Of a DNA stretch of 9,810 nt, positions 5,403-9,240 are shown piece by piece. The position numbers and the translations under genes were made by a program. The DNA is taken from NCBI GenBank assembly GCA_946479615.1, contig CAMLGR010000165.1:1-9810 (forward strand). Reading direction: 5' to 3'. Source of the DNA: an uncultured Bacteroidota bacterium. GTDB lineage: Bacteria; Bacteroidota; Bacteroidia; Chitinophagales; Chitinophagaceae. The stretch's first letter is position 1. The number at the start of each line of letters is the position of its first letter. Below the pieces are notes generated by a model, which was given only the letters and a program-made list of their open reading frames with translations, did not search any database and was not told the origin of the DNA.

Positions 5403-6995
5403 ATGATGGGAACTAAAAAATTGCAGGTTTGGCTACCACTTCTCTTCTCCATAGTATTGATCGCAGGAATGTTTTTCGGGTATAAGCTGAACACAGCAGG
5501 TAACACTAAGGGTTTTTTTCAAACCAGTAAATCCACCTCGCTTCAGGAAGCACTCGACCTGATCCGTTTAAAATATGTTGATGCGGTAAATATCGATTCA
5601 CTCGAAGGTGGCGCTATACAGGAAATGATGAGCGCACTCGATCCGCACTCCGTATATTTTCCACCCGTTCAATTGAAAGAAGTCAATGAAGAACTGGCCG
5701 GCAATTTTGACGGCATCGGTGTTGAGTTCAATATTTTTAATGATACGGTGAATATAGTATATGTAGTACCTGAAGGTCCGAGTGATAAAGCCGGACTGAA
5801 GATCGGTGACCAGTTATTAAAAGCGGACAGTAGTTTCCTGAGTGGAAAAGGACTGGGTACCGCGCAGATCAAGGAACATATACGTGGTGAAAGAGGATCG
5901 AAAACCAACCTCGTTGTGTTGAGAAATGGCGCACAGCAAACGGTACAGGTAACAAGAGGAAGTATACCCGTGTATTCAGTCGATGCTTCTTATATGATCG
6001 ATGCTACTACAGGTTATATCAAGCTGAATAAATTTACCGAGACCAGTTACGAAGAATTCATGAGTGCATTGGAAGGATTGCAGAAACAAGGCATGAAGCA
6101 ACTGATCTACGATCTGCGTGGCAATGGTGGTGGCTATATGAATGAAGCCATCGATATGGCTGATGAATTTCTGGATGGAGATAAATTAGTCGTGTATACA
6201 CAAGGCGTCAATAGTAAAAAACGCGAATACCGCTGTAAACGCCCGGGTTTATTTGAAACAGGAAAACTGGTATTATTGGTAGACGAACTTTCTGCCAGTG
6301 CTACGGAAGTATTGACCGGCGCTTTACAGGACTGGGACAGGGCCACGATCGTCGGCCGCCGCACATTTGGTAAAGGATTGGTGCAGGAGCAATATGATCT
6401 GAGTGATGGTTCGGCACTCCGTTTAACAGTTGCGCGGTATTATACACCATTGGGAAGAAGTATTCAGCGTCCTTATGACAAGGGAAAGAAAGTGTATATG
6501 GATGAGATCTGGGAGCGGTATTCCAATGGCGAAGCATTATATGCCGATTCCAATAAGATCAGTAATGGAAAACAATTCGAAACACCGGCTCATCGCATCG
6601 TATATGGTGGTGGCGGTATCATGCCGGATATATTTGTGCCCATCGATACTTCTACCTATCCTGCCGGTATCAACCGGATCTTTGTAAATGGCAACTTCAA
6701 TAATTTCGTTTATCTCTATTATTTGCGTCATCGCCCTGATATTGATAAATATTCTTCTGCCGGTGCTTACCTGCAGGGATTCGAAGGAATGAATGGCATG
6801 TGGGATCAGTTTACACAATATGCAGCGAAAGATTCTGTGAACCTGCAGGTATTAAATGATCAGCAAAAGGAAGTATTGCAAAGAAGATTAAAAGCCTATC
6901 TCGGCCGGTTTCGCTGGAGAAACTCTGGCTATTACCAGGTATTGAATGATGATGACCTGGTGATCAGGAAAGCGGTGGAAGAGTTGAGGAAATAA
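5403..6995 (+). CDS. S41-family C-terminal processing protease
   Basis: A periplasm-facing serine protease of the CtpA/Prc family (MEROPS S41), which cleaves envelope proteins near their C-termini. The 530 residues contain an N-terminal hydrophobic anchor (about 9-27, uncleaved signal or signal peptide), a cap/N-domain with the family's SALDPHSVYFPP (77-88), a PDZ domain (about 90-185) and the peptidase core. The core shows YIKLNKFTE at 205-213, DLRGNGGG at 237-244, the nucleophile Ser299 in LSASATE, and Lys324 and Gln328 in FGKGLVQ. The 25-residue Ser-Lys spacing equals that of plant-type CtpA, so the catalytic dyad is intact. A C-terminal extension of about 170 residues follows, as in Bacteroidota homologues. 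ATG at 5403 and ATG at 5406 are both possible starts. It is monocistronic, with its stop codon inside a heptamer palindrome that probably also ends its transcript. The native substrate is unknown. Confidence 0.95.
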   Translation: MMGTKKLQVWLPLLFSIVLIAGMFFGYKLNTAGNTKGFFQTSKSTSLQEALDLIRLKYVDAVNIDSLEGGAIQEMMSALDPHSVYFPPVQLKEVNEELAGNFDGIGVEFNIFNDTVNIVYVVPEGPSDKAGLKIGDQLLKADSSFLSGKGLGTAQIKEHIRGERGSKTNLVVLRNGAQQTVQVTRGSIPVYSVDASYMIDATTGYIKLNKFTETSYEEFMSALEGLQKQGMKQLIYDLRGNGGGYMNEAIDMADEFLDGDKLVVYTQGVNSKKREYRCKRPGLFETGKLVLLVDELSASATEVLTGALQDWDRATIVGRRTFGKGLVQEQYDLSDGSALRLTVARYYTPLGRSIQRPYDKGKKVYMDEIWERYSNGEALYADSNKISNGKQFETPAHRIVYGGGGIMPDIFVPIDTSTYPAGINRIFVNGNFNNFVYLYYLRHRPDIDKYSSAGAYLQGFEGMNGMWDQFTQYAAKDSVNLQVLNDQQKEVLQRRLKAYLGRFRWRNSGYYQVLNDDDLVIRKAVEELRK

Positions 6996-7142
6996 GAAAT
7001 GAGGAAGTAAATGTAAAATGTAGGATGTAAAATATAAAATGTAAAAGGAGTGATCGGTATCCGGCCACTCCTTTTACATTTTACATTCTGGATTTTGCGG
7101 TTCTACATTTACTTCCTCATTCCTTATTTCTCATTTCTTATT
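6991..7142. repeat. Heptamer palindrome, copy 2 (between convergent genes)
   Basis: An imperfect palindrome that fills the gap between the S41 protease gene and the leftward membrane-protein gene. From the outside in, both arms carry AATAAGA, AATGAGG-type units, the linker AAGTA, then AATGTAA-type heptamers. The core AATGTAAAAGGAGTG (7038-7052) pairs perfectly over 15 bp with 7066-7080 around a 13-nt loop. The right arm has two extra outer units and an AACCGCA unit missing from the left, as expected from gain and loss of heptamers. The core hairpin is flanked by T-rich sequence on both strands and probably acts as a bidirectional terminator. Each outermost AATAAGA unit contains the stop codon of the adjacent gene. 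Confidence 0.88.
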
Positions 7143-7475
7143 CTCCATTCCCCAACCTCTTATCCAACACCTCCTTCTTCTCTACTTTATAAGAAAGTAC
7201 CAGGCCAAATCCACCGCCGATAGCGATCATGGAAAAATAAACGGCCGCCGGTTCTACACGGCGCGGAATAGCAAAGGTATCAAGCAGGAAAGCCAGTAAT
7301 AATCCTACACCGGCGCCGACCAGTAAGGAGCCGGGCGGCGATACACTTCTTTAGGGTTCATGCCTTTCTCGATCATAGCCAGGTTTTCCCGTTTGTGCAT
7401 ATACACAACCCCAAAAACCAGTAAGAAAAAGCCCAGCGGGATCAAAACGGCCACAAACATCTCTGTTGCGTTCAT
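7138..7475 (-). pseudogene. Frameshifted small membrane protein, DUF6249-like
   Basis: From ATG 7475 the frame reads 56 residues (starting MNATEMFVAVLIPLGFFLLV) and stops at 7305. The protein-like sequence continues in another frame from about 7332 (GSLLVGAGVGLLLAFLLDTF) to a stop at 7138-7140. The two parts together give about 112 residues, with transmembrane segments near 7-26, in GSLLVGAGVGLLLAFLLD, and in AVYFSMIAIGGGFGLVLSY. Between the first two segments is KRENLAMIEKGMNPKEVYRR, a pattern typical of small DUF6249 membrane proteins encoded near ECF sigma genes. The break lies in the GC-rich stretch around 7330-7340 and needs one missing (or two extra) bases. It may be a true mutation or a sequencing error; I see no classical slippery site. 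Two ECF-type promoter sites lie upstream, so it is a likely target of the neighbouring sigma factor. Confidence 0.75.
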
Positions 7476-7523
7476 AACTAGTGATTTATTGTTATTTTAT
7501 AAATTTTGTTTCTGTTCTTCTAT

Positions 7524-7550
7524 GACTGCCCTTTTTAAAGAGAGGTTACA
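7524..7550 (-). promoter_or_regulatory. ECF-type promoter site C (toward the membrane-protein gene)
   Basis: On the minus strand TGTAACC (7550-7544) is followed after 14 bases by GCAGTC (7529-7524). The layout equals that of the sites at 7609-7635 and 7831-7857, with one -10 base different. It lies 49 bases before the start codon of the frameshifted membrane-protein gene and is the best placed to drive it, with a leader of about 40 nt. Confidence 0.6.
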
Positions 7551-7608
7551 GGTTGAAAGAACTTTTTTTGAGGATCAGCCTGCCCGGGCAAACTGGTCAC
7601 GAAATTAG

Positions 7609-7635
7609 GACTACGGCTTGCTGAAAGAGGTTACA
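7609..7635 (-). promoter_or_regulatory. ECF-type promoter site B (toward the membrane-protein gene)
   Basis: On the minus strand TGTAACC (7635-7629) and GTAGTC (7614-7609) are separated by 14 bases. This is an exact match in both boxes and in spacing to the site before the sigma gene. It lies 85 bp upstream of site C, so the two could be tandem promoters of the same leftward gene. Confidence 0.62.
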
Positions 7636-7640
7636 GGGGT

Positions 7641-7818
7641 AAAATAAGAAATGAAGAATAAGGAATGAGGAAGTAAATGTAAAACCGCAAAATATAAAAT
7701 GTAGAATGTAAAAGGAATGGCCGCTTATTAAACACCCCTTTTACATTCTATATTTTGCGGTTTTACATTTTACATTCATTTTCTCATTCCTTATTCCTCA
7801 TTTCTTATTTCTTATTTT
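7641..7818. repeat. Heptamer palindrome, copy 3 (between divergent promoters)
   Basis: The largest member of the family, with the same outer (AATAAGA, AATGAAG, AATAAGG, AATGAGG) and inner (AAATGTA, AACCGCA, AAATATA, GAATGTA) units. Positions 7675-7696 pair perfectly over 22 bp with 7749-7770. The arms differ in the number and order of heptamers. The symmetry extends beyond the units to GGTTACAGG (7629-7637) and CCTGTAACC (7829-7837), which contain the -35 boxes of promoters B and A. It therefore sits between two divergent promoters rather than at gene ends like copies 1 and 2. Confidence 0.87.
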
Positions 7819-7830
7819 CTCCCCGCATCC

Positions 7831-7857
7831 TGTAACCCAATTCCTTACTTTGTAGTC
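7831..7857 (+). promoter_or_regulatory. ECF-type promoter site A, sigma gene autoregulation
   Basis: TGTAACC (7831-7837) and GTAGTC (7852-7857) are separated by 14 bases, identical in boxes and spacing to site B on the other strand. An AAC-containing -35 box is usual for ECF sigma factors. The predicted start of transcription (about 7863-7866) is only a few bases before the ATG at 7869, giving an almost leaderless mRNA. I infer that the sigma factor activates its own gene. Confidence 0.65.
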
Positions 7858-7868
7858 TTACTCACAGA

Positions 7869-8447
7869 ATGTCTACCGGACTGAATGATAACGAGATCAT
7901 TAGCAAAGTTTTGGCTGGTGACCAACAGGCGTATGCCGGGTTGGTGAACCGCTACCAGAACTATGTTTTCACGCTTACTTTACGGTTTACCAAAAACCGT
8001 GAGGACGCGGAGGAAGTCGCGCAGGATATATTTATAAAAGCTTACCGGTCGCTGGTCAACTTCAGGGGAGAATCGAAATTCAGTACCTGGTTGTATACGA
8101 TCGTCAATACAACCTGCATCACATTCCTCCGGAAGAAAAGACTGGATATCCATTCGCTGGATGATGAAAAAATATTTGAAGCAGCTGATAATCCTGATTC
8201 CGGCATGGGCGCCAACCAGGTGGAACAGAAATCAAGGGTAACGATGGTTACACAGGCTATCAACCTGCTAAGTCCTGATGATGGACAGATCATAACTTTG
8301 TTTTATAAAGCCGAACAAACATTGGAAGAGATTGCGCAAACATTGAAGATAGAACCGAATACAGCCAAAGTAAGATTGCATAGAGCAAGAGCGAGGCTCA
8401 AAGAAAAAATGGAACAGTATTTTTCACAGGAAGTGAAAGACCTGTAA
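7869..8447 (+). CDS. ECF-family RNA polymerase sigma factor
   Basis: A 192-residue group IV (ECF) sigma-70 factor, which directs RNA polymerase to a specific promoter set. Region 2 spans about 25-92: NRYQNYVFTLTLRFTKNREDAEEVAQDIFIKAYRSL-type sequence with the core-binding DAEEVAQDIF (46-55) and the -10 recognition part FRGESKFSTWLYTIVNTTC (65-83). Region 4 spans about 128-185, with the helix-turn-helix TLEEIAQTLKIEPNTAKVRL (151-170) that reads the -35 box, followed by HRARARLKE. The linker between them is acidic and short, and no region 3 is present, as usual for ECF factors. The only early ATG gives a normal N-terminus. It is followed after 42 bp by a membrane anti-sigma candidate. Matching promoter sites lie upstream on both strands. 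The signal it answers to is unknown. Confidence 0.96.
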   Translation: MSTGLNDNEIISKVLAGDQQAYAGLVNRYQNYVFTLTLRFTKNREDAEEVAQDIFIKAYRSLVNFRGESKFSTWLYTIVNTTCITFLRKKRLDIHSLDDEKIFEAADNPDSGMGANQVEQKSRVTMVTQAINLLSPDDGQIITLFYKAEQTLEEIAQTLKIEPNTAKVRLHRARARLKEKMEQYFSQEVKDL

Positions 8448-8489: not shown

Positions 8490-9032
8490 ATGACTATGGA
8501 TGCAACTCATAACAGCGATCAGCAGGATATGGAAATACGCCTATGGGAATATATCGATGGACTGTCTGCAGAAGCTGAAAAAACAGTGATTGAACAATTA
8601 CTGCAAAATAACAACGCCTGGAAAGCGAAATACAGCGAGTTGCTGGATATACATCAATTGATGCAATCTTCCGAACTGGAAGAACCTTCGCTGCGGTTTA
8701 CCAAAAATGTAATGGAAGAAATTTCGAAACTTCATATTACACCGGCTACCAAAACCTATATCAATAAAAATATCATCCGCGGTATTGCCATCTTTTTTGT
8801 TACCACCATTGTCGGTTTCCTGGTATATGGATTTGCACAGGTCGATTGGTCAGGCAGCAGTTCCGGTTCCGGTGTTTCCAACATACCCGTTGATATGAGC
8901 AAGGTCGATATCAGCAAATTCTTCAACAGCACCTATATGAATGTATTTATGATGATCAATGTGATACTGGGTCTTTTCCTTCTTGATCGTTATCTCGCTG
9001 CCAAAAGAGAAAAATTACATAAAGATGCTTAG
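8490..9032 (+). CDS. Putative membrane anti-sigma factor with two TM helices
   Basis: A 180-residue protein encoded 42 bp after the sigma gene, so its partner is very likely that sigma factor. The cytoplasmic N-terminal part (about 15-80, with EIRLWEYIDGLSAEAE at 15-30) has the helical pattern of the anti-sigma (zf-HC2-like) fold but no cysteines and no zinc-ligand set, so it would be a zinc-free variant. Transmembrane segments lie at about 95-118 and 149-169, joined by a Gly/Ser-rich loop (WSGSSSGSG, 120-128) and a short periplasmic segment. The C-terminus is basic (KREKLHKD) and cytoplasmic. The name rests on position and topology, not on a strong motif. ATG 8490 and ATG 8496 are both possible starts. 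It would hold the sigma factor at the membrane until a signal arrives. The loop between the helices is too small for a large sensor domain. Confidence 0.75.
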   Translation: MTMDATHNSDQQDMEIRLWEYIDGLSAEAEKTVIEQLLQNNNAWKAKYSELLDIHQLMQSSELEEPSLRFTKNVMEEISKLHITPATKTYINKNIIRGIAIFFVTTIVGFLVYGFAQVDWSGSSSGSGVSNIPVDMSKVDISKFFNSTYMNVFMMINVILGLFLLDRYLAAKREKLHKDA

Positions 9033-9091: not shown

Positions 9092-9115
9092 TGTCAGAGT
9101 GTGGCTATAAGTTGT

Positions 9116-9240
9116 GGTGTTAGGTGTTAAGTTTTAAGTGTTAGGTTATCTTGATAACCGGTAGTTAACTATCCATTTTCACGCTCTTCATCACCCAACA
9201 CCTAACACCTAGCACCTAACATCATTCTCCCCTAACACCT
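9116..9240. repeat. Heptamer palindrome with a different unit (GGTGTTA)
   Basis: The left arm is made of GGTGTTA, GGTGTTA, AGTTTTA and AGTGTTA heptamers. The right arm carries the complementary AACACCT-type units, including variants with one base changed and a detached unit at 9234-9240. Positions 9116-9128 pair perfectly over 13 bp with 9197-9209. Inside is a separate perfect hairpin, GGTTATC-TT-GATAACC (9144-9159). The architecture (facing arms of 7-bp units) is that of the other three palindromes, but the unit sequence is different. Its right end abuts the promoter of the downstream gene. Confidence 0.8.

Follow-up and report, generated by a model that had tools for sequence, protein, structure and literature searches.

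The 9,810-nt window, that is, the whole stretch of DNA that was analysed, carries three equally spaced promoter-like sites around the genes of an ECF sigma factor and a probable anti-sigma factor. In all likelihood, these sites are promoters read by the sigma factor next to them. We are confident that the locus represents an autoregulated sigma/anti-sigma switch of Bacteroidota, which would act via AAC-N18-GTC promoters at its own operon, at the gene of the small membrane protein DUF6249 and, in the Chitinophagaceae, at genes for a DUF2807 lipoprotein and a small secreted protein family. The motif, its fixed spacing and orientation, its conservation, its co-movement with the targets and its co-occurrence with the sigma gene can be read from the sequences themselves.

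The pattern TGTAACC-N14-GYAGTC matches the window exactly three times, at 7831-7857 on the plus strand and at 7609-7635 and 7524-7550 on the minus strand, as the original prediction had it. None of 200 dinucleotide-preserving shuffles of the window contains a match (mean expected number 0.00, maximum 0). The -10 box, proposed as GYAGTC, is present in this form and is longer than proposed: the third base after GTC is an A in all three sites (GTAGTCTTA, GTAGTCCTA, GCAGTCATA). The putative autoregulatory promoter of sigma spans 7831-7860 (+), with the -35 box TGTAACC at 7831-7837, the -10 region GTAGTC at 7852-7857 and the conserved A at 7860. Its transcription start, positioned from other ECF promoters, is predicted around 7863-7866, 3-6 nt 5' of the sigma ATG. 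On the minus strand, a proximal site (TGTAACC-N14-GCAGTCATA, 7521-7550) and, 85 bp upstream of it, a distal tandem site (TGTAACC-N14-GTAGTCCTA, 7606-7635) point toward DUF6249.

This layout, one site before sigma and two toward a divergent membrane-protein gene, agrees with what had been proposed. The gene itself (7138-7475, minus strand) is not intact: its first frame stops after 56 codons, the downstream part lies in another frame, and a relative is matched by tblastn in two frames. The break may be genuine or may have arisen in assembly. For this interrupted copy, PF19762 gives 24.5 bits (2.8e-05) over the first 51 residues, under the cut-off of 33 bits; all five intact relatives scanned are above it, with 48.1 to 66.7 bits. 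The predicted DUF6249 structure (pLDDT 75) consists of three long helices. An S41 protease gene (5403-6995, plus strand) adjoins DUF6249 in the window; in Flaviaesturariibacter, where the locus is split, DUF6249 again has such a gene as its neighbour (L085, 2-1009), and the protease may take part in signalling.

The sigma gene (7869-8447, plus strand) encodes a protein of 192 aa with the composition of ECF (group IV) factors, regions 2 and 4 only in about 190 residues. It matches Pfam Sigma70_r2 (2.6e-18) and Sigma70_r4_2 (4e-10) and NCBIfam sigma70-ECF (1.1e-29), and the closest solved sequences are 8z6g_B, 6in7_B and SigW (5wuq_A). The sites show, at the sequence level, what is typical of promoters of this group: an AAC-type -35, a GTC-type -10 and the AAC-N18-GTC arrangement.

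Directly 3' of sigma and in the same direction, as in class I anti-sigma systems, lies the gene of a probable anti-sigma factor of 180 aa (8490-9032, plus strand). Its predicted structure (pLDDT 78) has a four-helix N-terminal domain (residues 6-81) and two long helices (93-117 and 148-179) that, judged by eye, look transmembrane. In a fold search (Foldseek, VIA), the best eight VIA rows correspond to six proteins, all of them anti-sigma domains: RsiW, RslA, MucA, the SigK partner, RseA and ChrR. Pfam and NCBIfam scans of the 180-aa protein returned no family. The zinc ligands Hx3Cx2C of the zinc-binding subset are absent from an alignment of 33 anti-sigmas; class I factors include members without zinc ligands, according to an excerpt of PMC7406223. 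An ORF of at least 110 aa follows sigma in 78 of 81 loci (the window and the best 80 of 451 related loci), its kinship not having been checked for each. In the Flavobacteriaceae members among the loci L057-L079, the anti-sigma is only about 130-150 aa long; it has lost most of the N-terminal domain and retains a PS-type motif and both helices, the residual short N-terminal part in Flavobacterium bearing PS-x-x-FT. Past the anti-sigma gene, an inverted repeat (I7) with TTAGGTGTTA-type units occupies 9115-9224.

A different, imperfect palindromic repeat of ~170 bp lies between the divergent promoters (7642-7810; inverted repeat I2, 74-nt arms, 82% complementary), and further ~150-170-bp copies are found in intergenic gaps of the window, at 6989-7142 and ~697-820. 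Such a palindrome could have spread the sites, or their similarity could be a matter of chance, but an origin of this kind is next to impossible: the sites are outside the palindrome, the shuffles contain no match, and a search at E 1e-8 found no copy of the palindrome in 80 related loci (best 80 of 451), most of them with sites. Chance is ruled out by the shuffles together with the confinement of the sites to the regions upstream of sigma.

This confinement is seen in the related loci, for which the sigma protein was searched against genome contigs and the best 80 of 451 confirmed loci were taken. The strict motif is present in 45 of these 80. Its generalised form, TGTAAC-N17-[AC]GTC-NN-A, has 163 matches in 81 sequences (the window and the best 80), all of them at most 700 bp upstream of sigma, with none in the remainder of the 641,503 bases (0.64 Mb). 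The order of the sites in the 81 sequences is minus-plus in 34 and minus-minus-plus in 25, the window included; 17 have sites on a single strand (seven minus, seven plus and three double minus), and five have no site. The absence of sites from L062 and L017 means little, because their upstream sequence is nearly missing (L062 has almost none and L017 98 bases).

The spacing is nearly constant as well. In 51 mostly Chitinophagaceae sequences, 92 of the 96 intergenic TGTAACC..NYAGTC pairs are exactly 14 bp apart. The 92 tabulated sites were selected by their boxes, which therefore do not vary. Their spacer columns are close to random, Y is T in 88, and the A at the third position after GTC, which lay outside the selection, is found in all 92. 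In 29 more distant loci (Flavobacteriaceae, Sphingobacteriaceae and others, 11 of them close Flavobacterium), a motif-free dyad count, made without a shuffled control, places TGTAACC-N16-CGTC among the top pairs, with 25 loci containing it. This is, by its spacing, the same AAC-N18-GTC geometry, with C replacing A. The original prediction was to fall if boxes and spacing were not conserved in related sigma loci; both are conserved. The assignment to the adjacent sigma, initially made from position alone, is backed by this conservation around a free spacer, and also by sites staying with split targets and by their presence and absence across genomes, as described below.

Autoregulation is suggested by a plus-strand site (PWM score of at least 12) before sigma in 77 of the 81 loci (the window and the best 80 of 451). 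Between the final C of GTC and the first in-frame sigma start codon lie 9-13 nt in 65 of these 77 (median 11; 11 nt in the window), the start codons being assigned by script and one of them uncertain (L070, a fragmentary frame). Since ECF transcription usually begins 5-9 nt past the -10 core, a sigma leader of about 2-6 nt is predicted, and the sigma mRNA would be near-leaderless. Because it is conserved across orders, the predicted short leader is likely to be under selection. Short leaders are rare in mapped Bacteroidota transcriptomes: excerpts give 5.5% leaderless transcripts and a median leader of 24 for Flavobacterium psychrophilum (PMC9723704), and about 3.7% of leaders below 10 nt for Bacteroides thetaiotaomicron (PMC7366714). 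A leaderless ECF sigma transcript is described for sigEp1 of Mycobacterium tuberculosis, where the promoter is not the ECF-type one (PMC4921905, in part). We put forward, tentatively and as a rather doubtful idea, that the sigma transcript is near-leaderless by design from Chitinophagales to Flavobacteriales, with ordinary leaders on the targets, and that the loop uses leaderless translation and so amplifies when normal initiation is impaired. If true, the switch would sense the translation state besides the envelope. Neither the putative near-leaderless sigma transcript nor the break in the DUF6249 frame was part of the original prediction.

Two half-boxes at a fixed spacing could also form the binding site of another DNA-binding regulator, in which case the sites would be operators. 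This is highly improbable: they are non-palindromic and point at the target gene, the 9-13 nt that separate GTC from the sigma start codon in 65 of 77 loci would be unusual if an operator were to control a start farther upstream, and AAC-N18-GTC is a known ECF promoter geometry (GAAT-N18-GTCT in Sinorhizobium meliloti, from the sections of PMC3616915 consulted).

Taken as ECF promoters, the sites keep close to DUF6249 in other genomes. In 73 of the best 80 of 451 loci, a divergent copy is present no more than 1600 bp 5' of sigma, and of the seven loci without a nearby copy, L017 and L062 have little or no upstream sequence. All 44 measured loci have a site before DUF6249, with a median of 46 nt from the proximal GTC to the ATG (range 7-116), and a second tandem site is present in 21 of the 44, at a spacing of 63-102 bp, most commonly 69. 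In Flaviaesturariibacter flavus, DUF6249 is on a separate contig with its own site pair, and sigma retains its single site. In genome G113, the two genes are 274 kb apart on the same contig, DUF6249 again having a site pair. In the two genomes where DUF6249 is truly unlinked, the sites travelled with the gene. DUF6249 was separate from sigma in four regions (L303, L309, L361 and L367), of which only that of G113 (L309) is clearly unlinked; the other three are on different contigs of draft assemblies, and G198 (L367) resembles a contig break.

It had been proposed that the consensus might allow the wider regulon to be read from the genome. With the strict motif this fails, as almost nothing is found outside the locus: 13 genomes gave 31 matches versus 2 in the reversed control, of which 27 are in the locus, two at unlinked DUF6249 and two inside ORFs. 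With one mismatch, 12 of 45 matches in 13 Chitinophagaceae genomes were neither in the locus nor at the unlinked DUF6249 gene, versus 17 in the reversed control, and the system was read as a private circuit without a wider regulon. For the Chitinophagaceae this reading was overturned by the [AC]GTC-NN-A form and the downstream genes, which reveal a small envelope regulon; two of the 12 off-locus matches (L140 and the G012:C16 site in L183) precede DUF2807. The relaxed motif gave 162 matches in 37 genomes versus 48 in the reversed control (summed by hand): 86 in the locus, two at unlinked DUF6249 and 74 outside, the latter again to be set against the 48. No such regulon was obtained in Flavobacterium, and for the Flavobacteriaceae the private circuit stands. 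In a 12-genome Flavobacteriaceae set, which includes one Flavipsychrobacter and one Nubsella, nine of 32 matches were off-locus (hand count) versus 27 controls; eight of the nine were retrieved, and all eight are inside ORFs.

Among 20 off-locus regions, picked mainly for between-genome resemblance, nine sites lie about 59-87 bp upstream of a gene for a DUF2807 lipoprotein (L177 being credited by sequence within an over-long frame). By eye, the protein (head-GIN/Toastrack) looks like a lipoprotein. All four distant-target proteins scanned pass the DUF2807/Toastrack (PF10988) cut-off of 24.2 bits, with 135.9 to 175.9 bits, and the remaining DUF2807 targets were assigned through sequence searches or HMMs. 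When each of 37 Chitinophagaceae genomes is represented by its best DUF2807 gene, a PWM score of at least 17 is found upstream in 20 and of at least 14 in two more; 17 of the 37 score below 17, 15 of them below 14. Second DUF2807 copies (31, six of them from Flavobacteriaceae) never reach 17; those of L231 (11.9) and L234 (8.3) exceed 7.7, the 99.9% point of a null that used 250-bp stretches of the sigma loci themselves; only one stretch scores above 12, and it is the site of DUF6249 itself in L050, over 1 kb upstream. In G014-G025, a set of 12 genomes from Flavobacteriaceae and other groups, no site was found before DUF2807. In L201, L220 and L242, DUF2807 is preceded by GGTAAC one base nearer CGTC, perhaps a spacing variant.

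A small secreted protein family has sites in 12 of 30 retrieved loci, two of which are weak and distant (L280 and L284, with GAC for GTC, 275-279 bp from the gene). A Pfam scan of one member, from G027, gave no family. In 11 of the 12 loci, a TAnnTTTG housekeeping -7 box lies within the ECF spacer (by eye, partly by script); composite promoters of this type were noted in L271-L280, L284, L301, L305, L344 and L352. Two Niastella genomes (L181 and L182) have a CGTC site 49 bp ahead of a gene for a secreted protein of 663-664 aa, which in L181 has CBM9 and beta-lactamase-type domains. Other candidate targets, from ten Pfam-scanned proteins, include TonB-receptor-like, outer-membrane barrel, MacB-like, aspartyl-protease, esterase and DUF4440 proteins, with one or two cases each.

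The motif co-occurs with the sigma gene across genomes, which were counted as sigma-positive by E-value (1e-40 or better in Flavobacterium, 1e-45 or better in Chitinophagaceae). In 61 Flavobacterium genomes, the CGTC motif is present in 15/15 sigma-positive versus 2/46 sigma-negative genomes (Fisher 1.9e-12). In 117 Chitinophagaceae genomes, TAGTC is found in 36/45 versus 3/72 (Fisher 3.1e-18; all p values given here treat related genomes as independent), and either form in 43/45 versus 11/72, so that nine sigma-positive genomes lack TAGTC and two lack both forms. The cut-off is imperfect and misplaced at least G151, which was filed as sigma-negative but has a diverged sigma/DUF6249 locus under it. 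The in-locus co-occurrence is not independent of the earlier results, because eight entries of the 117-genome sample recur from earlier sets and at least five further sigma-positive genomes have sites identical to those of the related-locus set. The absence from sigma-negative genomes and the sites outside the locus are the newer evidence.

In 219.6 Mb of sigma-positive genomes there are 56 off-locus CGTC sites, against 9 in 288.2 Mb of sigma-negative genomes (p 1e-12), and the reversed-pattern control runs in the opposite direction (22 versus 57, summed by hand). The dearth in sigma-negative genomes is therefore not due to a lack of sequence, the control being unmatched in composition. Counting both types, 66 off-locus sites in sigma-positive genomes comprise 14 before DUF2807, 19 before small secreted genes and six before DUF6249 away from sigma (39/66 at the three families), 18 at other genes or unclear and nine inside long ORFs (stop-to-stop frames of at least 450 nt on either strand). 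In sigma-negative genomes, eight of 12 sites are inside long ORFs, one is before DUF2807 (in G135), one before DUF6249 and two are classed as other. The off-locus gene classes come from HMMs of families that were first found in other genomes, so these two labels do not stand independently of that discovery.

The sites could also be promoters of several paralogous ECF sigmas with a common TGTAAC/GTC recognition, the linked sigma being one user. The Chitinophagaceae offer 8 to 147 first-look sigma-relative candidates (candidate ECFs) per listed genome, the CGT-box motif SM6 was suggested to be readable by several sigmas in F. psychrophilum (excerpt of PMC9723704), and the co-occurrence is compatible with a second ECF of the same specificity and history. 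The off-locus sites are, moreover, mostly CGTC and the window's AGTC. Against this, the two forms mix in single sigma loci, 15 loci having C at sigma and only A at DUF6249, several DUF2807 promoters have the AGTC form (L197, L206, L207, L208, L218, L246, L362, L364 and L366), and the sites are rare in genomes without the linked sigma. We regard this alternative as unlikely. The coexistence of both forms within single loci also rules out the base before GTC as a clean clade switch, and the residues separating the A-form and C-form groups follow the tree; an A or C at this position may tune promoter strength. One record titled Williamsia sp., an actinomycete, contains a Bacteroidota sigma locus (L041), and this assembly is probably mislabelled or contaminated.

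With the linked sigma as the user of the sites, the switch could work as follows. The membrane-anchored anti-sigma would retain sigma at the inner membrane, and an envelope signal, presumably stress, would release it. Sigma-bound RNA polymerase would then initiate at AAC-N18-GTC promoters. One of them would drive the sigma/anti-sigma operon, forming a positive loop, and one or two would drive the divergent DUF6249; in Chitinophagaceae, further copies would drive the DUF2807 lipoprotein and the small secreted proteins. The loop would be closed by the anti-sigma, which comes from this sigma operon too and would act as a built-in inhibitor.

Few Bacteroidota ECF sigmas have known promoter codes or regulons, and the present one appears readable from sequence. 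Its candidate regulon has a named core, sigma/anti-sigma and DUF6249, to which the Chitinophagaceae would add a Toastrack lipoprotein and small secreted proteins, so that DUF6249 and one DUF2807 clade gain a probable regulatory home. The private circuit of Flavobacterium and the expanded circuit of Chitinophagaceae form a natural contrast, and the predicted near-leaderless self-promoter is deeply conserved.

Autoregulated ECF/anti-sigma modules are of a known kind, and the present member is apparently undescribed: in the open-licence papers searched, nothing was recognised on this motif or sigma, and DUF6249 was named only in a paper on bean WAK genes. SigR-type promoters have a comparable AAC/AAT-N18-GTC geometry with a GTC core. 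The same geometry and core, in an autoregulated ECF operon, characterise RpoE1 of S. meliloti (PMC3616915, as far as the excerpt goes); unlike RpoE1, the present system has an extended TGTAACC -35, an A three bases past GTC, A or C before GTC, a Bacteroidota host and a predicted near-leaderless sigma mRNA. The nearest sigma sequences and anti-sigma folds are those of SigW-RsiW (5wuq), AlgU-MucA (8z6g/6in7) and RpoE-RseA (1or7). In these pairs the anti-sigma is membrane-anchored and responds to envelope signals; in comparison, the anti-sigma of the window has no zinc-ligand motif and seemingly two membrane helices.

Within the Bacteroidota, SM6 of F. psychrophilum comprises ECF-type promoters that were mapped in a member of the Flavobacteriaceae and have a CGT -10 box; its targets include the sigma/anti-sigma operon THC0290_1774/1773; the target selection given in the excerpt of PMC9723704 is mainly T9SS, Band-7 and others, and DUF6249 and DUF2807 are not named there. 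EcfO of Bacteroides fragilis and the Das/Dma systems of Bacteroides are likewise tied to stress or the envelope (PMC7366714, PMC13088901 and PMC12596196, in part). EcfO is set beside the present sigma by system description and not by motif, and the Dma proteins cross both membranes, whereas the anti-sigma of the window has 180 aa and two helices. For SigP of Porphyromonas gingivalis, another ECF sigma, the promoter motif proposed is C(T)AAA(G/C/T)A(T)A(C)T(A/G)A; this is unlike the present one, and SigP acts with PorX (excerpt of PMC4800418). Finally, DUF2807 is among the Pfam models unified as Toastrack in the PSP/Lia envelope stress systems (PMC11237479, in part); here, the link to the sigma factor is a promoter motif and not an operon, and the protein is, by eye, lipoprotein-like.
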